DNA of 64,000 nt from Oscillatoriales cyanobacterium (GTDB lineage: Bacteria > Cyanobacteriota > Cyanobacteriia > Cyanobacteriales > Laspinemataceae). The stretch is from contig JAABRM010000018.1 of NCBI GenBank assembly GCA_011390955.1, positions 62,001 through 126,000 of the forward strand. Direction: 5' to 3'. Below are positions 50,136 to 64,000 of the stretch, piece by piece. Each line of letters starts with the position of its first letter. Position 1 is the first letter of the stretch. A program made the position numbers and the translations under genes. The notes beneath the pieces are model-generated. The model made no database searches. It saw nothing but the letters and a program-made list of their open reading frames with translations, and had not been told where the DNA came from.

Positions 50136-53100
50136 TCACTGCTGACAAAATTCTCGGACCTGTGAAGCCTCAGAAGCATTTGCCAGATACCCTTCCAGCC
50201 ACTCACACCCCGCTACCAACAACTCATCCAGCCCTTGAACCCGCCATAAATTCACAGTTCCCATATCTCCTCCAGCAAGAATCGACTGCCCATCGGGGCT
50301 AAAACTCAGCCCCCACACTGCCCCTGACTCATTGGCAAACTCAGCCACTTGTCGCCCCTGTAAATCCCAAATTCGCACGGTCCCATCCATGCCCCCAGTG
50401 GCAACATACAACCCATCGGGGTTAAAACTCACCCCATTAATCCCACTCTGGTAGCTGAAAAACTCCAGTTGTTGCCGTCCCGACATATCCCACAGCCGCA
50501 CCATACTATTATTATCTGCCGTCACCAACTGCTTTCCATCGGGGCTAAAACTGACACTGCGGATTTGCGCCTGATGTCCCTGCCATTCTTGCTGCAACTT
50601 ACCCGATACATCCCATAGCTTGATTTTACCATCCCAGTCGGTACTCACAACCCGCTGCCCATCGGGACTAAATGCCACTTTACCCACTACCGCTTCATGT
50701 CCTTTAAGGGTTGCCAGCAATTCTCCAGACAAATTCCACAGTCGCGCCGTCTTGTCTGCCCCGGAAGTCACAATTAACTGACCGTCGGGACTAAAACTGA
50801 CACTATTCACCCAAGACTCGTGACCTCTTAACTGTTCCTGGGGTTGTCCCGAACCATCCCAAAGCCGCACCGTATTCTCATATCCCGCCGTGGCAATCGT
50901 TTTACCATCGGGACTATAACTCACACTCCACACCGCGCCGCGAGAATTCGCCGTCCACTGGGCCACTTGTTCCCCGGACAAATCCCAAACGCGGACAACT
51001 CCCTCATCTCCTGCCCCCACAATGCGCTGTCCGTCGGGACTAAAACTGACACTATTCACATCTTCTTGATGACCGGAAAACTGCACTGCTGTCCGTGCGG
51101 ACAGGTCCCACAGACGAGAGGTGCCATCCCGTCCCGTACTGACCAAGTATCGCCCATCGGGGCTAAACTTCGCTTGCCACACGGTCCCGCGATGACCTTG
51201 CAACCGGGCAATTTCCCGACCGGAATTTTCCCACAGCCGCACAGTCCCATCGTCCCCTGCGGTTGCCAACCGCTGACCGTCGGGACTAAAACTCACGGCA
51301 ATTACCCAGCCTTGATGTCCCTCAAAGCTTTGCACTTCCTTACCGGACAAATCCCAAATCCGAGCGGTATTATCATCCCCCGCCGTTGCCAACTGCTGAC
51401 CGTCTGGGCTAAAGGTCACGTCAAGCACCTGCTGTCCGTGTGCTTTAAACTGACTGACCTGCTTGCCAGTCCGATCCCACAGTCGGACGGTTCCATCTTT
51501 TCCCGCCGTCGCCATTTTCTGCCCATCGGGGCTAAAACTGATCTGGTTGACGCCGCCGGGATGGTCAAATTTTGCCTTCTCCCTTCCCGACATATCCCAC
51601 AATTTCACTACACCAAAGTCATCCCCAGAGGCAAAACTCTGGCCGTCGGGACTGAAGCTCACTCCATTGACTACGGTCTGGTGTTCCATTTTTGCCAGTT
51701 GTTTGCCGGAAGTATCCCAGAGACGCACGGTTTCATCTCCCCCGGCACTAACAATTTTCTGGCTATCGGGACTAAAACTGATATCGTTGATTCCGCCTAA
51801 CACACCCTCCAGATGACCTTCGAGTTTTACCTGCTCTGTTCGCTTTGTTCCTGAAAGGCTCCAAATTCGGACAATTCCATCCCGTCCTGCGGTGGCAACG
51901 GTTTCTCCGTTAGGACTGAAACTGGCAGCTTTGACTTCTTCTCCATTAGCATCAAGTCGATCGCGCTCGTAAATAGTATCGAGAATTTTCTGTAATGCCA
52001 AGATGGGACTAGCTGCTGGGTACTCTTGGGGAGGACGACCATTTTTAACCATTTCTTGCAATCGTTGACCGCTTTGCATCGCGGAAAGCAATGCCTCTAG
52101 TTCCCCTGATCGCAACTGCCGTAGGGCACTCACCCCCGCTTGTTCTAGCTTGGTCCCTTCTTCCGCTTCTCGCTGTTTGTAACTGGCGATCGTTGCTAAA
52201 CCGAAAAGTCCCCCAGCGCAAAGAATGCTCGCTACCAGAAACACAGACCCGATTTTAATTCTACGCTTCGCTTTTTGGTTGGCAGCTTCAAGAATGCGCT
52301 GTTCTTTTTGTGCTGTCTCTTTCTCCCGTCTTTCTTGTTCCAGAGTCAGTTGAGCTTCTATTTCCTCTAACTGCGCTCGATCGCGGGCTTCTTTACTCAA
52401 TTGAATTAATTCAACCGCATCCGATGACAGTTCCCCAGGGTATTGTTGCAAAAACTCTTCCGCTAAAACTAAGCGACTGCCACCGAGTAAGTCTCCGCGT
52501 TGATGAGACTTTCCACCATCCACCCATTGCCGAGCCTCAACTTCAATCCGCCGCTGATTTCGCAACATTTCTCTACTTTCTTCCAGCCAGCTTTTTAACT
52601 GAGGCCAGTGACGGATTATGGATTCATGGGCAACATCAATTACTGTCTCTTTTCCGGTTTCTCCTCGGGCTTGCAATTCATCAGTCACCACTAACCGGGC
52701 TTCAACTAATTTAGAAATCACGCGATCAACGATTTCTTCGGTATATTCCGTAGTAATAAGTTCATTTTTTAGCACCCGTCGGCGAGTATCTTCCGTCCCT
52801 TCTCCCAAATGGGTTAATTCCAGGAAAATGCGCTTGGCAACTTTCGGTTCCGCTTCAGAAAAGTCTTGAAAAACTTTATCTGCTTGCTTTTGCAGCGCTC
52901 CCTTGACTCCTTCCAAACGGTCATATTCCGAAAGGGTCAACCAACTGACTGTTTTGTGATGCCAGAGTTCGGTCAGGGTATATTGCAAGAGCGGCAAACT
53001 TCCCGGAGAACCTTGCACGTCCTCAATCATTCGTTTAATCAGTCCCGCTTCCACTGTCAGTCCGACTTGCTGCGCGGGTTTCGCGATCGCCTCCTCTAAA

Positions 53101-54530
53101 TCTTGTGCCGTCATTGGCGGAACAATCAGCTTATATTCTTTCTTCTTCATATAGTCTGCCAGACCAGAATGCTGCTGTTCCACAGATTTCCCCAAAAAAT
53201 CAATCCTCATCACCAGCACCAGACAAAGCTTGCCATGACTTTGCTCTAAGGCTCCCAAGAGGCACTGAAAAAACTTTTGCCGTTCCGAGTCATCTTCACA
53301 AAGGGTAAAAATTTCCTCAAATTGGTCTATTACCAAGACAACACGAGGCGCTTGAGTTGCTTCGATGAGACGCTTTAACCCTTCCACTCCCGTTGCGATA
53401 AAGTCTTCAGCTTTTTTAAGCTGATATGCACGTTCAGTAGGAGGTAGATCCGGTTCTGCATCCACAAATATCCGAGCTAAGTTTTTCAGGGGACTGATAT
53501 CTCGTTCTCCTGGGGTGAAAGGAGGGTAAATTTTCCAGCGATCGCTCGACCCCCAGCGATCGTCAGAAAACTTTCCTAATTTAAGCTGATACAACAACCC
53601 CGCTCGCACCAGGGAAGACTTGCCACTGCCAGAAGGCCCGATAACTGCCAGAAAATTGTTCCGCCGAAGTAGGTCGATCGCCTCATCAATGACCCTAGTC
53701 CGCCCATAAAAATATTGAGCATCTTCTTCTTTAAAATCAAAATACCTCAACGCCCGATAAGGACAAATCCCTTCCCGAACTGGCTTACCTAACTCCTGCT
53801 TTCTACTGGTGAGAATAATTGGATTCCCAGAGTTACTATAAATGGGCGCTTGAGGGACTCCTTTAAACTTTTCTTTAATAAAATCTGTGAGGTGATTATT
53901 TGTCACCACCCCATCGGCATAGTTATTGGGGTCGAGTCCTTGCAACAGAAACTCAGTCAAAACCCCATGCTCGCCACTTAACGACTCATAAGCTAACTCA
54001 AATGCACGACAGGCGGCAATGAAACACCGATCTGTTCCTTTGCCCAAACTCCCTGGGTCGGCTTCATCAAAGTTAAGCAACTCCCCACTGTGGCAGCAGT
54101 CCAGCCAGATAATCTGTTGCCTGACCGGACTTTCCTGCAACAAGCTACGCAACGATTTCAGCGAAAAACCCCGAAATCCTACACTTGGATCGGAGTCGCT
54201 GGTTGCCAAAAAGCCTTTAGTAGTTGCACCGATCTTTGCACGTATTCCATGACCAGCAAAGAATAGCAATGCGGTTTCAGGAGCTTGGGTCTTTTCTCCT
54301 TCGGGGTTGAAGAGATTGGCGATCGCCTCCTCTAACTCCTTAAATGTAACTGTGCCATCAGGGTTCACGCACAGCTTGCCGTTTATATTGGCTTCCGGCA
54401 ACCGTCGCACGCGAAAACCCCCATAGGTTTCCAGAAGGTGAGCAACTGCTTCCGCATCCCCTGCGGGTTTCCGCAAATCCCCTATCTCCGGGTAGTTATT
54501 AATGCCCACCACCAGTGCATCGCGAGTCAT
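50136..54530 (-). CDS. Caspase-STAND NTPase-WD40 protein, probable conflict-system effector
   Basis: From ATG 54530 the protein has about 1464 residues. Residues 1-240 form a caspase-like peptidase with an intact dyad: His94 in FFAGHG and Cys146 in WLDCCHSGE. Residues 270-600 form a STAND-type P-loop module (GPSGSGKSS at about 298-306; VLVIDQFEEIF as Walker B), then a winged-helix-like stretch and a coiled coil. A single membrane span follows (SVFLVASILCAGGLFGLATI). The C-terminal 600 residues hold fourteen WD40 repeats (pattern SFSPDGQ...TVRLWD), enough for two seven-bladed propellers. Such proteins sense an invader or damage signal through the repeats and release the protease. The upstream frame to 54614 overlaps the divergent gene and was excluded. 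Confidence 0.9.
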   Translation of the reverse strand: MTRDALVVGINNYPEIGDLRKPAGDAEAVAHLLETYGGFRVRRLPEANINGKLCVNPDGTVTFKELEEAIANLFNPEGEKTQAPETALLFFAGHGIRAKIGATTKGFLATSDSDPSVGFRGFSLKSLRSLLQESPVRQQIIWLDCCHSGELLNFDEADPGSLGKGTDRCFIAACRAFELAYESLSGEHGVLTEFLLQGLDPNNYADGVVTNNHLTDFIKEKFKGVPQAPIYSNSGNPIILTSRKQELGKPVREGICPYRALRYFDFKEEDAQYFYGRTRVIDEAIDLLRRNNFLAVIGPSGSGKSSLVRAGLLYQLKLGKFSDDRWGSSDRWKIYPPFTPGERDISPLKNLARIFVDAEPDLPPTERAYQLKKAEDFIATGVEGLKRLIEATQAPRVVLVIDQFEEIFTLCEDDSERQKFFQCLLGALEQSHGKLCLVLVMRIDFLGKSVEQQHSGLADYMKKKEYKLIVPPMTAQDLEEAIAKPAQQVGLTVEAGLIKRMIEDVQGSPGSLPLLQYTLTELWHHKTVSWLTLSEYDRLEGVKGALQKQADKVFQDFSEAEPKVAKRIFLELTHLGEGTEDTRRRVLKNELITTEYTEEIVDRVISKLVEARLVVTDELQARGETGKETVIDVAHESIIRHWPQLKSWLEESREMLRNQRRIEVEARQWVDGGKSHQRGDLLGGSRLVLAEEFLQQYPGELSSDAVELIQLSKEARDRAQLEEIEAQLTLEQERREKETAQKEQRILEAANQKAKRRIKIGSVFLVASILCAGGLFGLATIASYKQREAEEGTKLEQAGVSALRQLRSGELEALLSAMQSGQRLQEMVKNGRPPQEYPAASPILALQKILDTIYERDRLDANGEEVKAASFSPNGETVATAGRDGIVRIWSLSGTKRTEQVKLEGHLEGVLGGINDISFSPDSQKIVSAGGDETVRLWDTSGKQLAKMEHQTVVNGVSFSPDGQSFASGDDFGVVKLWDMSGREKAKFDHPGGVNQISFSPDGQKMATAGKDGTVRLWDRTGKQVSQFKAHGQQVLDVTFSPDGQQLATAGDDNTARIWDLSGKEVQSFEGHQGWVIAVSFSPDGQRLATAGDDGTVRLWENSGREIARLQGHRGTVWQAKFSPDGRYLVSTGRDGTSRLWDLSARTAVQFSGHQEDVNSVSFSPDGQRIVGAGDEGVVRVWDLSGEQVAQWTANSRGAVWSVSYSPDGKTIATAGYENTVRLWDGSGQPQEQLRGHESWVNSVSFSPDGQLIVTSGADKTARLWNLSGELLATLKGHEAVVGKVAFSPDGQRVVSTDWDGKIKLWDVSGKLQQEWQGHQAQIRSVSFSPDGKQLVTADNNSMVRLWDMSGRQQLEFFSYQSGINGVSFNPDGLYVATGGMDGTVRIWDLQGRQVAEFANESGAVWGLSFSPDGQSILAGGDMGTVNLWRVQGLDELLVAGCEWLEGYLANASEASQVREFCQQ

Positions 54531-54582
54531 GGCTTTAACATTTGCTAGAGTAAAATTATTCCTATATTGACACACAATTCTA

Positions 54583-55041
54583 ATGAATGACTCTACTGCG
54601 ATCGTCGCCAACAAAGCATTATTGGCGATTTTGCTTACCCTTGATATCCTCGAAGTGCCTCTTAACCCTGACGAACAGGCTGCCTTAAAAAAAGCCGGTC
54701 AACGACTTGCCATGAATCCTAAAAAATGGGAGTCTGAAATCAAGAGACTTTTGGACAGTTTCGCGGCGAACTCCTCCTTCACAGCTTCCTATCTGGATAT
54801 CAGAAAACAGCTTGAGGAAATTGATGGGGATATTCCCGTTGAGATTCTCCCCAATGAGGATGAGCTTAAACAGGTGCTTCCGGGCGATCGTAAGCCAGTC
54901 AAGCGAGTTTATTTTGAAGGAACTGCTGACAAGAAAAGTAACGAGATTCTCAACTTGGCAATTAATGTGCTGAGAACACCAGAACCCGATATCACCTCTA
55001 AAAAACTTTCTCTATTTCAGCGAATCTCAAAATTATTTTAG
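54583..55041 (+). CDS. Helical protein, candidate CATRA-like partner 1
   Basis: The 152-residue, mostly helical protein begins MNDSTAIVANKALLAILLTL and has a basic mid-part (NPKKWESEIKRLLDSF). It starts 52 bp from the divergent caspase-STAND gene, so both share a promoter region. The following gene begins 16 bp after its stop. Small helical proteins next to caspase genes form part of the CATRA (caspase- and TPR-repeat-associated) conflict systems described by comparative genomics; the match here is by layout and general form only, so the name is a hypothesis. Confidence 0.6.
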   Translation: MNDSTAIVANKALLAILLTLDILEVPLNPDEQAALKKAGQRLAMNPKKWESEIKRLLDSFAANSSFTASYLDIRKQLEEIDGDIPVEILPNEDELKQVLPGDRKPVKRVYFEGTADKKSNEILNLAINVLRTPEPDITSKKLSLFQRISKLF

Positions 55042-58428: not shown

Positions 58429-58611
58429 ATTTCAAATATGGTCAATACAACCGCAAAATTTGAGGCACGAAACCCAACCTACCCTAAATCCAAATTTAAA
58501 AATGGTGCGTTACGGCGCTATTTTTACAATCTATGATTTTTATAGCAAGCTAATTAGCGCCAACACGCACCCTACTAGCTAATAACTAATAACTACGACA
58601 AAAAAAATACC
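58429..58611. repeat. Gap upstream of the ABC-2 permease gene
   Basis: No gene is seen. It holds a GGTGCGTTACGGCGC ... CAACACGCACCCTAC palindromic repeat (about 58503-58575), a family also present near 60466 and 62443. Confidence 0.6.
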
Positions 58612-60141: not shown

Positions 60142-60300
60142 TCGATGACTTACCCAAATTAAATTTTTCTGTTCCAGGGTCAATGTAGGGGTCAATTTAG
60201 GGGTCAATTTAGGGGTAAATGGCCATTGACCCCTACAAACAACAAACAACAAACAAACCACAAATAACCTTGTATTTGTAACAGCGAGCGAAATTTTCGT
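60142..60300. other. Short gap with CAACAAA-type repeats
   Basis: AGGGGTCAATTTAGGGGTCA-like direct repeats (about 60187-60214) and a short run of CAACAAA-type repeats (about 60236-60260) occupy this region. No gene is seen. Confidence 0.55.
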
Positions 60301-60480
60301 ACAATTGCCATAAACGGTAATTGTGAGGATATTGTGATTTTAAGGTTATTGTGTGTACTGATTGTTACTGTGGGGATTTGGTTGGGAAATATGGCCCCGG
60401 TAATGGCCAAATCAGAAAATCCCACCACCGCAACCCAAATTACACTAACTGATGCGTTACCGCGCTATGATTTAAGTTAA
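60301..60480 (+). pseudogene. Duplicated leader and signal peptide of the TPR protein
   Basis: A hairpin (ACAATTGCC/GGTAATTGT, 60301-60324) is followed by GTG 60334 and a frame that reads VILRLLCVLIVTVGIWLGNM and on, then stops at 60478-60480 after 48 codons. The 5' part is nearly identical to 63064-63190 of the TPR gene. It still encodes an exportable short peptide, but lacks the TPR part. Confidence 0.8.
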
Positions 60481-60745
60481 CGATTTTTTAAACAAGCTAA
60501 TTAGCGCAAAGACGCACCCTACCAACTAGCTAAAGTGTGGATTAAAATTTATGGTAGGATCTGTATAGTCTGATGACTTTACCAACTACTCAAGATATGG
60601 TGCGAAAGGCGCGAATAGCGATATTCTTGATTGAAATCACTAATGTTGGTTGTCCCGTATTTAGCGCAGCCCGAGTGCCAGCTATACACCGCCTACCAAG
60701 AGAATTCAAATGGGAGCATCCCATATTTGTAAACGGAGTCCAAAA
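60481..60745. repeat. Gap upstream of the ParA-like operon
   Basis: A palindromic GCGTTACCGCGC...GACGCACCCTACC repeat lies at about 60466-60522. The rest holds no recognised gene and may carry the operon promoter; a TATAGT-like box is near 60564. Confidence 0.5.
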
Positions 60746-61369
60746 ATGCAAAAGATAGTCGTAAATGCAACAAAAGGAGGAGTCGGGAAAACAACAATTG
60801 CCACAAACATAGCGCTGCTTCTGGCTAAACAAAACAAGCGTGTTTGGGCGTTGGATCTGGCGGGGAGAAGCCGTATGGCGAAGTTTTTAGAGTCTACAAG
60901 TTACTTTAATAACGGTGAAAACAAGATCGAAATTAAAGAGACAGAGCCTTTACCTGATTCTTTCCCCGGAGCGAATAACTACGATTTTTTGGTTGCTGAT
61001 ACAGATGATTACTACGAAGTTCCTGCTACCGTAGTCACAAAGCGAGGCTGGCGATTAATAGTTCCAGTTGTTCCTCAGTACGATCCCATTGGATTAGAGG
61101 ATATAATCAATGAAACTGCATCACTTTTGAATTTTGGTCTGATCGTTGACTTTGTTCCAAAAGCTCGAATAGTCGTCAATAACCGTTTTCCCGCCAATGA
61201 TTATGAACAACTTCACAGGAACGTTCAGAACTTACTTAAGGATGCCTCTATTGAAGAGTTTTTATCATCCAACTGGTTGCCATTCGTAAGTATTTCTCCT
61301 TTAGATTTTACATCTGATGAAGTTTTCTCAAGCTCCTTATTATCTGTTCTCACTGAGATCGCTACTTGA
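60746..61369 (+). CDS. ParA/SIMIBI-type ATPase, first gene of a three-gene operon
   Basis: From ATG 60746 the protein has 207 residues. The deviant Walker A motif KGGVGKTT (10-17) is intact. The switch region reads ALDLAGRSRMAKFL rather than the common D-x-D-PQG, and FLVADTDDYYE is the Walker B region. This is the ParA/MinD-like fold, here shorter than usual. Two genes follow with a gap of 8 bp and then an overlap. No ParB gene or parS-like site is seen, so plasmid segregation is not the obvious role. The next-but-one gene encodes a nuclease-like protein, which points to defence or to regulation of a DNA-processing enzyme. Confidence 0.82.
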   Translation: MQKIVVNATKGGVGKTTIATNIALLLAKQNKRVWALDLAGRSRMAKFLESTSYFNNGENKIEIKETEPLPDSFPGANNYDFLVADTDDYYEVPATVVTKRGWRLIVPVVPQYDPIGLEDIINETASLLNFGLIVDFVPKARIVVNNRFPANDYEQLHRNVQNLLKDASIEEFLSSNWLPFVSISPLDFTSDEVFSSSLLSVLTEIAT

Positions 61370-61377
61370 GATAAATT

Positions 61378-61839
61378 ATGTCAAAGCTAACTGATACGTT
61401 GAAAAATCAAATTTCAGGACAGATGAAAAATGTGACAATAAGTTTTGATGCGGATCTGCTAGATCGTAACTTATTAAATAAATTAGGGGTTTATCTGTCT
61501 ACGAATTCTGCCAAAAAATTAATTGAAACTTCATTTGCTATGACTTCAACAAAAAAATTAGACAATCATCATAGCATTATCGATCAAATTAAATATCGGC
61601 CTGCTAAACAATTATTAGATATATTATCTCAGCAGCCTCAAATCTCCAATGAAAAAAAAATAAAACGAGCTTCTGTTCCTCGATGGATGGTGCTAGTCAT
61701 TGGCTCAGAAATCGATTCTATAAATGGTAAAGATCCGGCCACTGTAGAGGATGCTATTAATCTAGTGTTTCGCTTATGTCTTAGTTTATTAGAAAAATCG
61801 TTAGGTGACAATGAGCAAACTACAAAGAAAGCTGGTTGA
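61378..61839 (+). CDS. Unknown helical protein between the ATPase and the nuclease
   Basis: The 153-residue protein begins MSKLTDTLKNQISGQMKNVT, is rich in Lys, Asp and Ser and mostly helical, with no membrane span. It starts eight bases after the ATPase stop and overlaps the start of the next gene, so it is translated as part of the same unit. It may be an adaptor between the ATPase and the nuclease. No known family was recognised. Confidence 0.75.
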   Translation: MSKLTDTLKNQISGQMKNVTISFDADLLDRNLLNKLGVYLSTNSAKKLIETSFAMTSTKKLDNHHSIIDQIKYRPAKQLLDILSQQPQISNEKKIKRASVPRWMVLVIGSEIDSINGKDPATVEDAINLVFRLCLSLLEKSLGDNEQTTKKAG

Positions 61840-62392
61840 AGATTTAATTTCTCGCAATTTTAGTGAAAAGCAGGAGATTGGGAACCGAATTGTCCGAGCT
61901 TTAGGCGGCGATCCTACTCCAAAAGTTACGGGATTACCTCCCAGGCGGGGATATTCTGATGGTGGTATAGATGGCAGAATTCCGATTCTGATCAAACAAC
62001 GAATAATTATAGAAAAACTTAAACGCAAGTCCGATGGAATGGAACTGCCAGTAAGAATTGAAGAAGGCGAATTTAAGTGGGTTAAGGCTGAGGCTGGTTT
62101 TAATATCAAAATTGAAACAGACTCCTTTGAACGAGATACACTTAATGCTTTCGTAGAGAATTTAAGACGTGAAGGAATTTTTGCGGGTGTGATTGTATCA
62201 GCAGTTGGACTTTCTCCAGATGCTAAAAGCGAGTTTCAGCGACACAATGCTAATGATATGGACTTATGCCATATTTCTCTAGAAGATTTGCTCAGTGGAG
62301 ATATATCTTGCGCTAATATTCGCTTTGTTATTGGCGACCTTGCCGCTCAACTTCGAGTTAGTCTTCGGGAATATTTAACTTCCCAGCTTTGA
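61811..62392 (+). CDS. Mrr-like restriction endonuclease
   Basis: The protein has 193 residues from ATG 61811 (or 195 from GTG 61805). It carries the pattern RGYSDGGIDGRIPI (Asp50 and Asp54) and FNIKIETDS (Lys100), followed by FAGVIVSAVGLSPDAKSEFQ. This is the layout of PD-(D/E)xK endonucleases of the Mrr type, such as those that follow GIDG...VSVK...GVFI patterns. The E/Q of the E-x-K motif seems to be Asn (N-I-K), so activity needs checking. It overlaps the previous gene by 28 bp and ends the operon. Confidence 0.68.
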   Translation: MSKLQRKLVEDLISRNFSEKQEIGNRIVRALGGDPTPKVTGLPPRRGYSDGGIDGRIPILIKQRIIIEKLKRKSDGMELPVRIEEGEFKWVKAEAGFNIKIETDSFERDTLNAFVENLRREGIFAGVIVSAVGLSPDAKSEFQRHNANDMDLCHISLEDLLSGDISCANIRFVIGDLAAQLRVSLREYLTSQL

Positions 62393-62614
62393 GTACATAA
62401 ACCAAGAGCTTTAAACGACAACTTTTACAGAGATGAAGATGGTGCGTTACGGCGCGATTGTTCAAATGTAATATTTTTGATAAATCCAATCAGCGCCTAA
62501 CGCACCCTACCGCTAATCTATCGCTAATATGCGGATGATAAAAAATTTGAATAGGTTAAGGTGTCTGACTCAATTTGTGTCTATATTTATAAGATAAACA
62601 GGAGGAAAGCCACT
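62393..62614. repeat. Gap with GGTGCGTTACGGCGC palindrome
   Basis: A palindromic repeat (GGTGCGTTACGGCGC ... GCGCCTAACGCACCCTACC, about 62440-62511) fills most of the gap after the nuclease gene. No gene is seen. Confidence 0.65.
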
Positions 62615-62893
62615 ATGCAAATTACCATCGACATCCCTAATGAAATTGTCTCACAACTGACCGCAACACCTGACCAGTTAGAGCGTCAGTTAATCGAACT
62701 TCTGGTCATCGAAGCGTACCGCAGCGATCGCATTACCCATTTTCAGGTGGGACAAATACTTCAACTTCCTTCTCGGTGGGCTGTTGATGAATTCCTGAAA
62801 AAACACCATGCCGATCTTCATTATAATGAAGAAGATTTGGCCAGCGATCGGCAAACCCTGCGGCAGTTAAGAGCTAAAAATCCCACCATTTAA
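62615..62893 (+). CDS. UPF0175 antitoxin, second family member
   Basis: The 92-residue protein from ATG 62615 begins MQITIDIPNEIVSQLTATPD and has the UPF0175 helix region (ITHFQVGQILQLPSRWAVDE). A GGAGGAAAG ribosome binding site precedes this ATG, which is preferred over the longer upstream frame. A PIN-type toxin should follow, but only the start of one remains (62897-62950). Confidence 0.82.
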   Translation: MQITIDIPNEIVSQLTATPDQLERQLIELLVIEAYRSDRITHFQVGQILQLPSRWAVDEFLKKHHADLHYNEEDLASDRQTLRQLRAKNPTI

Positions 62894-62896
62894 TCA

Positions 62897-62950
62897 ATGA
62901 TCGTTATTTCAGATACGTCGATGAACCCGCCGAAGTTTTACTCAATCTGA
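62897..62950 (+). pseudogene. Relic of a PIN-type toxin start
   Basis: ATG 62897 reads MIVISDTS, the standard start of DUF3368 toxins with its metal-binding Asp, and then breaks off with a stop at 62948-62950. The toxin body is lost, leaving the antitoxin alone. Confidence 0.6.
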
Positions 62951-63063
62951 GGCGATCGAGCAACTCACGGCAACTAATTTCCGCTAACCCACAACCAACA
63001 ACAAATAACCCTTAACTTTAGGACAAATAACCGTAAATTGGTTACAGCGAGCGAAATTTTCGT

Positions 63064-63087
63064 ACAATTGCCATAAACGGTAATTGT
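63064..63087 (+). promoter_or_regulatory. Hairpin in the TPR-gene leader
   Basis: ACAATTGCC and GGTAATTGT pair (one G-U) across a 6-nt loop, ten bases before the GTG start. The GTGAGGA that follows could be the ribosome binding site. The same hairpin precedes the duplicated leader at 60301. Confidence 0.55.
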
Positions 63088-63096
63088 GAGGATACT

Positions 63097-63906
63097 GTGA
63101 TTTTAAGATTATTGTGTGTACTGATGGTTGCTGTGGGGATTTGGCTGGGAAATATGGCGCCGGTAATGGCCAAATCAGAAAATCCCACCGCCGAAACCCA
63201 AATTATTCAAGCGGAAGAGTTGGTCAGTCAGGCTATGTCCGCGACTAATGCCGGAGACTTTGCCACGGCAGAGGCTTATTGGACGGAAATTTTGCAAATG
63301 TTTCCCGAAAATCCGGCGATTTGGAGTAACCGAGGCAATTCTAGGGTTAGCCAGAATAAGTTGGCAGAAGCGATCGCGGACTATAACAGATCCATAGAAC
63401 TTTATCCCAATGCCCCGGATGCCTATCTCAACCGGGGCACCGCCTGGGAAGGGTTGGGGCGCTATGAAGAGGCGATCGCGGACTATAACCATGTCCTAGA
63501 ACTCAACCCCGAAGATCCCGCAGCCTACAATAACCGAGGCAATGCCGAAGCGGGTTTAGGACAATGGCAAGCGGCTGTCGCTGACTATGAAATAGCCAGT
63601 GAATTAGCCCCCGACTACGCCTTTGCCCGCGCAAACTATGCCCTAGCCCTGTATCAGCTTGGGGAAAAGTCCGAAGCCTTGCGGCAGATGAAAAACTTAG
63701 TCCGCAAATACCCCAAATTTGCCGATATGCGGGCAGCCCTTAGCGCCGCCCTGTGGTCAGAAGGCAAAATTGGCGAAGCCGAAAGTAATTGGGTGGCAGC
63801 AGCAGGATTAGATCGCCGTTACCAAGACCTCACTTGGGTGAGTCAGATTCGCCGTTGGCCTCCGGCAATGGTCGCCGCTTTGCAAAAATTTATTGAAATT
63901 AAGTAA
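63097..63906 (+). CDS. Secreted TPR protein
   Basis: From GTG 63097 the 269-residue protein has a signal peptide (VILRLLCVLMVAVGIWLGNM, ending near PVMAKS) and four or five TPR motifs: AEAYWTEILQMFPENPAIWS, AIADYNRSIELYPNAPDAYL, AIADYNHVLELNPEDPAAYN and AVADYEIASELAPDYAFARA. The GTG start fits the upstream GTGAGGA ribosome binding site and is shared with the duplicated leader at 60334. TPR arrays mediate protein-protein contacts, so a scaffold role in the periplasm or thylakoid lumen is likely. The leader hairpin may control translation. Confidence 0.85.
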   Translation: MILRLLCVLMVAVGIWLGNMAPVMAKSENPTAETQIIQAEELVSQAMSATNAGDFATAEAYWTEILQMFPENPAIWSNRGNSRVSQNKLAEAIADYNRSIELYPNAPDAYLNRGTAWEGLGRYEEAIADYNHVLELNPEDPAAYNNRGNAEAGLGQWQAAVADYEIASELAPDYAFARANYALALYQLGEKSEALRQMKNLVRKYPKFADMRAALSAALWSEGKIGEAESNWVAAAGLDRRYQDLTWVSQIRRWPPAMVAALQKFIEIK

Positions 63907-63907
63907 T

Positions 63908-64000
63908 GGTTGTTGGTTGTTTGTTGGTTGTTGGTTGTTGGTTGTTGGTTGGTTGTTGTTTGTTGTTTGTTGTTGGTTATTTGTTATTGGTAGGGTGGGC
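63908..64000. repeat. Heptamer-repeat tract at the window end
   Basis: Runs of TTGTTGG, TTGGTTG and TTGTTTG-type heptamers follow the TPR gene up to the window edge, the same STRR-like family as at 27246 and 28343. Confidence 0.88.

Follow-up and report, generated by a model that had tools for sequence, protein, structure and literature searches.

Background

Among the closest described counterparts of the genes analysed here are the conflict systems reported by Kaur et al. in 2020. According to the accessible portions of that article (PMC7159879), these systems are found mostly in multicellular prokaryotes, cyanobacteria being named among them, and both predicted inactive MinD/ParA-like domains and nuclease effectors of the Mrr-like kind are reported. 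Those are vWA-MoxR and peptide-processing systems, and the same portions of the article do not describe the trio considered below. A second point of reference is provided by two laboratory mutants of ParA-type ATPases. The D42A mutant of MipZ is a constitutive dimer that is locked in the DNA-binding state and has very low ATPase activity, as stated in the available extracts of the study (PMC7229837), and the ATPase mutant D44A of Soj was crystallised as a dimer, as summarised in the accessible part of a review (PMC9178275). Below we compare with these systems a compact set of three cyanobacterial genes.

Organization of the locus

The window, that is, the whole stretch of 64,000 nucleotides that was analysed (positions 62001-126000 of contig C92, in a genome of 7.1 Mb), contains three small genes in tandem on the plus strand that together form an operon of 1.65 kb (Table 1). 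An earlier note on this DNA had described an 8-bp gap followed by an overlap, and the ORF coordinates bear this out: parA and the middle gene are 8 bp apart, and the middle gene overlaps the nuclease gene by 29 bp when the latter is read from the ATG at 61811, or by 35 bp from an alternative GTG start at 61805 (ORF 61805-62392, 195 aa). The ATG is the likelier start because most relatives of the window type begin with MGKLQ, MGNLQ or MMGKLQ. In other genomes, the first gap spans 6 bp (G764), 7 bp (G170), 8 bp (G904) or 24 bp (Calothrix), and the overlap ranges from 4 to 56 bp in six measured loci, with the starts chosen by us. This tight packing suggests that translation of the three genes may be coupled. 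Promoter-like and terminator-like sites were about as numerous as in shuffled sequence, and Rfam gave no match. Among the seven window proteins that were scanned, four of them neighbours of the trio, there was no ParB, methyltransferase or transposase, as the earlier note had it.

Table 1. Features of the three-gene locus and its flanks (positions in the window)
Feature	Position	Strand	Description
ParA/MinD-like (SIMIBI) ATPase gene (parA)	60746..61369	+	207 aa; keeps Walker A KGGVGKTT, has Ala39 in place of the switch-I Asp
Middle gene (mid), family-less protein	61378..61839	+	153 aa
Nuclease gene (nuc), Mrr_cat-like PD-(D/E)xK domain	61811..62392	+	catalytic domain only; conserved DGGIDGR and xIK, with Asn where Mrr has Gln
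Segment missing at the orthologous site of both congeners compared (G011, G012)	60443..63024	.	triplet and UPF0175 gene
Left direct-repeat copy	60260..60442	+	183 bp, 93% to 63023-63205; 5' remnant of TPR-repeat gene
Right direct-repeat copy	63023..63205	+	start of the gene 63097-63906, recognised by eye as a TPR-repeat gene

A ParA-like ATPase without the switch-I aspartate

The product of the first gene is matched by the Pfam families CbiA (E=2.3e-13) and AAA_31 (5e-9), which upholds the earlier assignment to ParA-like ATPases; the altered switch region is borne out by alignment. Like the ATPases of the ParA/Soj/MinD/MipZ group, it possesses the deviant Walker A motif with the signature lysine and the aspartates of the YDFLVADTDD segment; both KGGxGKTT and the aspartates of the DTDD segment are kept in all 14 aligned ParA rows, one of which reads DSDD. 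Unlike these ATPases, the protein is short, the partner gene is not recognisable as parB and, in 14 of 14 rows, the switch-I aspartate (the second aspartate of D-x-D) is missing, being replaced by alanine in 11 rows and by serine in three. For comparison, ten ParA-domain proteins were extracted from the same genome, of which nine have a recognisable Walker A motif and the tenth is a fragment; all seven that were aligned have aspartate at switch I, and so do, as judged by eye, the two unaligned proteins with a Walker A motif. Thus, the ParA-like protein of the trio has kept the ATP-binding motif and lost the hydrolysis aspartate of other ParA-type proteins.

When the ParA was compared with PDB sequences, chain 2bek_A (Soj) ranked fifth, behind three chains of ArsA and a two-domain protein. 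This chain is printed with VDLAPQGNA, Ala44 being aligned with profile position 39, and it scored 32.0 bits compared to 29.4 bits for the wild-type-like Soj chain 1wcv. We take 2bek to be the D44A mutant of Soj, which fits the printed letters. Position 39 would also correspond to position 42 of MipZ, judging from a match of equal length (4-65/7-68). The family therefore resembles both laboratory mutants, Soj D44A and MipZ D42A, in the position that is altered, and differs from them in that the alteration occurs in nature and is fixed among the members sampled; in other words, the ParA of the trio naturally carries the trap mutation that is engineered to lock a ParA dimer. We infer that this protein could bind ATP, dimerise and stay on DNA.

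With respect to known defence genes, the PDC-M28B model of PADLOC-DB 2.0.0 was matched by all 14 ParA rows, with 4.3e-7 as the best value, the match in the window protein covering only residues 2-38. No PADLOC-DB 2.0.0 model was matched along its length by the proteins of the window trio or by the ParA rows.

An Mrr-like nuclease domain with a modified active-site motif

The window nuclease itself scores below the Pfam cut-off of 21 bits with the Mrr_cat family PF04471 (E=0.085, 13.4 bits), and six of its ten relatives match this family at E values up to 1 (8.6e-8 at best). In a profile-profile comparison (hhalign) with seven Mrr_cat proteins, selected from 14 that were extracted by leaving out large fusions, the nuclease family reached 86.8% with a 7-row profile and 90.6% with a 12-row profile; controls made from the 7-row profile did not exceed 4.2% in 100 column-shuffled versions and gave 0.0% when the profile was reversed. 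The other two proteins of the trio gave 0.1-0.2% in the same comparison. Together, the Pfam matches of the relatives and the profile-profile comparison agree with the earlier classification of the protein as a nuclease of the PD-(D/E)xK type, specifically, an Mrr_cat-like one.

When the family was aligned by MAFFT together with four Mrr_cat proteins, the DGGIDG motif pairs with GDGGIDG (GDEGVDG in one of the four) and the lysine of xIK pairs with that of QxK, with similar spacing downstream; the correspondence to QxK rests on MAFFT because the hhalign path places the inter-motif stretch differently. The trio nucleases share with Mrr (PF04471) these two motifs, the spacing after the lysine and a C-terminal GxIITAxxLSPDA segment. 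They differ from the Mrr type IV restriction enzymes in having no N-terminal DNA-recognition domain (195 aa, with no other convincing domain match), in the association of all intact copies with parA and the middle gene, and in a stretch of 44 residues between D56 and the x of xIK in the window protein compared to 18 residues in the Mrr protein L048. A further difference is in the QxK motif, the glutamine of which is present in all four Mrr_cat proteins and is replaced in the trio nucleases by asparagine (nine rows), serine (two) or threonine (one). Hence this protein is a catalytic domain of the Mrr type that lacks a DNA-reading domain of its own.

The replacement of the QxK glutamine in 12 of 12 rows implies that the nuclease might be inactive or changed. 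Given that the catalytic aspartate of the ParA is gone as well, the trio could conceivably be a regulatory or structural DNA-binding complex with a catalytically dead nuclease. Against this stands the invariance of both aspartates of DGGIDGR and of the lysine in all 12 full-length rows, including the residues that the earlier note had singled out as Asp54 and Lys100 (D56 and K102 when numbered from the GTG), and we consider a dead nuclease very unlikely. The window nuclease had no match in PADLOC and none among PDB sequences, and its AlphaFold2 model, with a mean pLDDT of 43.7, is too poor to use.

The middle protein

The middle protein of the window had no match in Pfam, NCBIfam or PHROGs up to E=1; PADLOC yielded one weak match, to ZorC (0.0079), and the PDB search one match at chance level (E=2.7). 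When 11 rows of the family were compared with Pfam, scattered weak matches to nine families were obtained, each in one or two members, with 0.01 as the best value. The AlphaFold2 model has a mean pLDDT of 39.8 and is likewise too poor to use; at such pLDDT values for the middle and nuclease models, no fold search was run. A tandem ribbon-helix-helix architecture was considered and is not supported: compared by hhalign with 15 RHH_1 members, the whole protein scored 0.2%, its halves 0.5% and 0.2% and a wider alignment 0.2%, and 100 column shuffles reached 3.2%.

This gene is the most divergent of the three, with 18-24% identity between groups. L28, L40 and T42 are invariant, and M1, F23, F53, P101, W103 and E124 are nearly so. 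In three genomes of one genus (G170, G274 and G817; loci L010, L011 and L127), it is replaced by a fused head-to-tail duplicate of approximately 290-309 aa. An open middle gene was found only inside the triplet and, accordingly, the protein most likely bridges the ParA and the nuclease.

A short ParA gene followed by a small gene resembles the layout of type Ib partition operons. Together with the ParA homology, this layout brings up a derived partition or positioning module, in which the ParA and a centromere-binding-like middle protein would position the nuclease for DNA uptake, repair or chromosome handling. The deviant Walker A motif of ParABS and type Ib systems is indeed present in the trio; the switch-I aspartate and a recognisable adjacent ParB or RHH gene are not. 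With the hydrolysis aspartate lost in 14 of 14 rows, a normal ParA cycle is not expected, and no ParB or RHH model was among the matches of the window protein or its relatives, a result still compatible with a very divergent member. A search for repeats of at least 25 nucleotides around the window copy detected only the flanking direct repeat of 199 nt described below, inspection of 14 upstream stretches of about 160 bp by eye revealed no shared motif, and six copies of the triplet lie on contigs of 3.8-11.4 Mb. One search of plasmids with the ParA returned no match, and a second returned five partial matches at 31-38% identity. We regard a partition or positioning role as unlikely.

Conservation of the triplet

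A search with the window nuclease as a single sequence gave positives in six of 386 genomes of the phylum and in one of 14 genomes of the same family, namely, the genome of the window itself. That genome has a second nuclease copy, 38% identical to the first, which belongs to another parA-mid-nuclease set in identical order on contig C2 (locus L009). The 12-row nuclease profile again found six of 386 phylum genomes, all within the window's own order; a weak nuclease match outside this order, in G429 (E=8.1e-4, with five stops), was treated as chance, and this genome was not among the listed matches of the wider nuclease profile, a search that drew a different sample. An early scan of genome contigs with the window nuclease alone found no relatives. 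With the nuclease alignment, a scan that rests on two short patterns and that distant relatives elsewhere could escape, four relatives emerged from 181 pattern matches, all of them cyanobacterial: an Oscillatoriales MAG, Dolichospermum sp. UHCC 0259, Calothrix sp. PCC 7716 and Dulcicalothrix desertica PCC 7102. At the sensitivity used, no nuclease relatives were found outside cyanobacteria.

A profile of the middle protein gave positives in 13 of 388 genomes of the order, in one of which (G905) only a fragment is present. In each of the 12 other genomes, the open middle gene has parA directly upstream and an Mrr-like gene directly downstream on the same strand, and in two of these a partner gene is damaged: G134 has a nuclease gene with a disrupted 5' part, and the parA of G747 continues in another frame towards its end. 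With Calothrix included, the complete triplets number 13 and are spread over 11 genomes, of which G000 and G764 have two apiece; the G747 copy comes in addition. The triplet occurs in six families of the order, a recurrence beyond chance. The earlier note had made its proposal depend on the triplet being conserved across genomes and on the homologues not belonging to a known partition or defence family; order and orientation proved to be kept throughout, and on neither count did the findings go against the proposal.

Genomic sites

Both congeneric genomes compared lack the segment that holds the triplet (Table 1), in line with the view that the region is accessory, and the repeated stretch that flanks this segment in the window is single in both of them. 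In its wider form, the direct repeat extends over 199 nt (60260-60458 and 63023-63221, 90% identical), which is far longer than a usual target-site duplication. The missing segment also contains an antitoxin-like gene of the UPF0175 family (62561-62893; PF03683, E=2e-17), the usual toxin partner of which may be truncated immediately downstream, as judged by eye. A repeat of about 80 bp, palindrome-like by eye, is present in three copies of 79-81% identity (58500-58583, 60447-60522 and 62436-62517), two of which flank the triplet. A high-copy dispersed repeat starts at approximately 63900-64000 of the window, where most of the listed matches to the window's own genome (81 in total) are found, and positions 50136-54614 encode a large protein that, judged by eye, combines a caspase-like N-terminus with an NTPase region and with WD40 repeats. 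Large proteins of this kind are common in filamentous cyanobacteria.

The second informative site is that of G904 and Dolichospermum (G864), where nothing but the triplet separates fabD from a gene that looks desaturase-like by eye. G061, G077 and G085 belong to the same genus and have no nuclease match; in these three genomes, the matching flanks of this fabD site are only 181-462 bp apart. Congeners without the unit are thus available at two different sites, and at the fabD site nothing else is missing. The presence or absence of the triplet as a unit at two sites, the difference of sites between lineages and a near-identical tandem pair in G764 (L126 5057-11937), with a repeating unit of 3,977 bp that holds the triplet and an upstream gene for a 305-aa protein, would be compatible with a small mobile or homing cassette in which the nuclease promotes the cassette's own spread. 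However, the triplet of G035, a genome of a different genus, is located at the same fabD site as that of Dolichospermum, so movement does not seem to be frequent, and no inverted repeats of at least 25 bp were detected at the two loci tested, the window and L126. We regard self-promoted mobility as improbable.

At the other sites, most of the neighbours that could be named by eye have housekeeping functions (fabD, miaB, leuC, icd), which weakens the argument from defence islands. We scanned 71 neighbour proteins, taking ORFs of 110-1000 aa no more than 6 kb away at 10 loci that each represent a different site, and the families listed comprise 25 of 107 for Pfam and 25 of 51 for PADLOC, the latter at a threshold of 1e-5. 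Among the PADLOC families listed, PDC-M45B/C, PDC-M19A and mad2 were each matched by two neighbours, and one neighbour apiece was found for mad6, for MkoA, for a kinase model and for the PD-T4-6 kinase models; restriction-modification, CRISPR and CBASS models were not among them. Such matches may represent defence genes or shared domains and are descriptive, not a test. A defence-island setting is not supported, most of the other sites lying among housekeeping genes, although a few of the 71 neighbours match PADLOC. As a separate observation, the second triplet of the window genome is probably accompanied on each side by a gene pair of the XisI-XisH type (L009 5449-6449 and 10468-11213), an assignment made from ORF size and likeness, with PF08814 and PF08869 in two neighbours each.

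Co-evolution and decay

Among 10 triplets, pairwise distances are strongly correlated (r = 0.946 for parA and mid, 0.971 for parA and nuclease, 0.945 for mid and nuclease), and none of 2000 permutations reached any of these values. This test retained G747 with its shortened parA and left out the three genomes with a doubled middle gene (G170, G274 and G817), the damaged copies of G134 and Dulcicalothrix and the second G764 copy. In all three gene trees, the window copy, G035, Dolichospermum, G904 and G747 are separated from the C2 copy, Calothrix and G894; G723 and G764 pair together in the parA and mid trees and not in the nuclease tree. Both types are found in the window genome and in genus g39 (G170, G274 and G817 as opposed to G894), and the history of the unit is therefore not simply that of its hosts. 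Taken together, the triplet is a co-inherited unit that is either there or missing as one piece.

For the most informative pair, G035 and Dolichospermum, the NG86 dN/dS ratio is 0.19 for parA, 0.24 for mid and 0.27 for the nuclease. The corresponding values for the closest pair, G274 and G170 (0.62, 0.92 and 0.67), are uninformative because dS is only 0.03-0.05, and the ratios of more distant pairs, with dS between 0.8 and 3.2, span 0.035-0.58, apart from one that is undefined.

Some of the copies are decaying: the nuclease gene in G134, parA and the nuclease gene in Dulcicalothrix, a nuclease fragment only in G129 and a middle-gene fragment only in G905. The pattern of decay bears on the possibility that the trio is an addiction module resembling toxin-antitoxin systems, in which a self-toxic nuclease would be silenced by the ParA and the middle protein and the unit would persist by addiction or act by abortive infection. 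All 14 intact nuclease genes adjoin an open middle gene and parA (intact in 13), the nuclease is damaged wherever any nuclease is seen in a damaged copy (G134, Dulcicalothrix and G129), and toxin-antitoxin-like genes are found near some copies (UPF0175, and PIN domains in three of the 71 neighbours). Conversely, the nuclease of G747 is intact although the end of its parA is out of frame, all these numbers being small, and we know of no ParA-type antitoxin. An addiction module is possible in our view, if rather doubtful.

A candidate conflict cassette

The combination of a lone nuclease domain, an apparently non-cycling ParA, a partner protein found only in the trio and a patchy, decaying unit is best accommodated by a conflict cassette, with an addiction module next. 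We therefore tentatively favour a self-contained, three-gene accessory conflict cassette of cyanobacteria that was previously undescribed, as a serious possibility rather than a probability; its role in defence is what we infer. Weighing against the conflict cassette are the housekeeping sites, the loss of the QxK glutamine and the lack of any trace of the nuclease in viruses or plasmids, as no relatives were found on plasmids, in phages or in viral contigs.

Under the conflict reading, the ParA would dimerise on ATP and remain locked as a DNA-binding dimer, a natural equivalent of Soj D44A and MipZ D42A. As an adaptor, the middle protein would connect the nuclease with this static clamp on the DNA, and a trigger from invading DNA or infection would cause the nuclease to be released or loaded, whereupon it could cut foreign DNA or that of the host. 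That a locked, non-hydrolysing ParA dimer serves as a DNA clamp and, via the middle protein, arms a DNA-blind Mrr nuclease is a speculative proposal with a limited chance of being correct. Equally conjectural is the corollary that ParA acts here as a static platform for a nuclease directed at incoming DNA or infection and not as a moving partition motor.

The statement of the earlier note that no named defence system has this gene set is supported by the lack of a full-length PADLOC match and by searches of a PMC library, which listed no description of the parA-mid-nuclease set. Compared to known nuclease-NTPase conflict cassettes, a categorically new mechanism is possible. What the present analysis adds to the first reading of the DNA is the natural alanine or serine at switch I of the ParA and the asparagine, serine or threonine in place of the QxK glutamine.

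If the interpretation proposed here is right, these cyanobacteria would possess a hitherto undescribed trio contained in a complete operon of a size that is easily cloned, and an unusual nuclease active site, with N, S or T in place of Q/E, would be added to those already known. It would also be a candidate defence unit that resides mostly outside defence islands and, hence, would be missed by guilt-by-association screens. Finally, with the classic trap mutation of ParA fixed throughout a natural family, the use of a never-cycling ParA would become a testable question.
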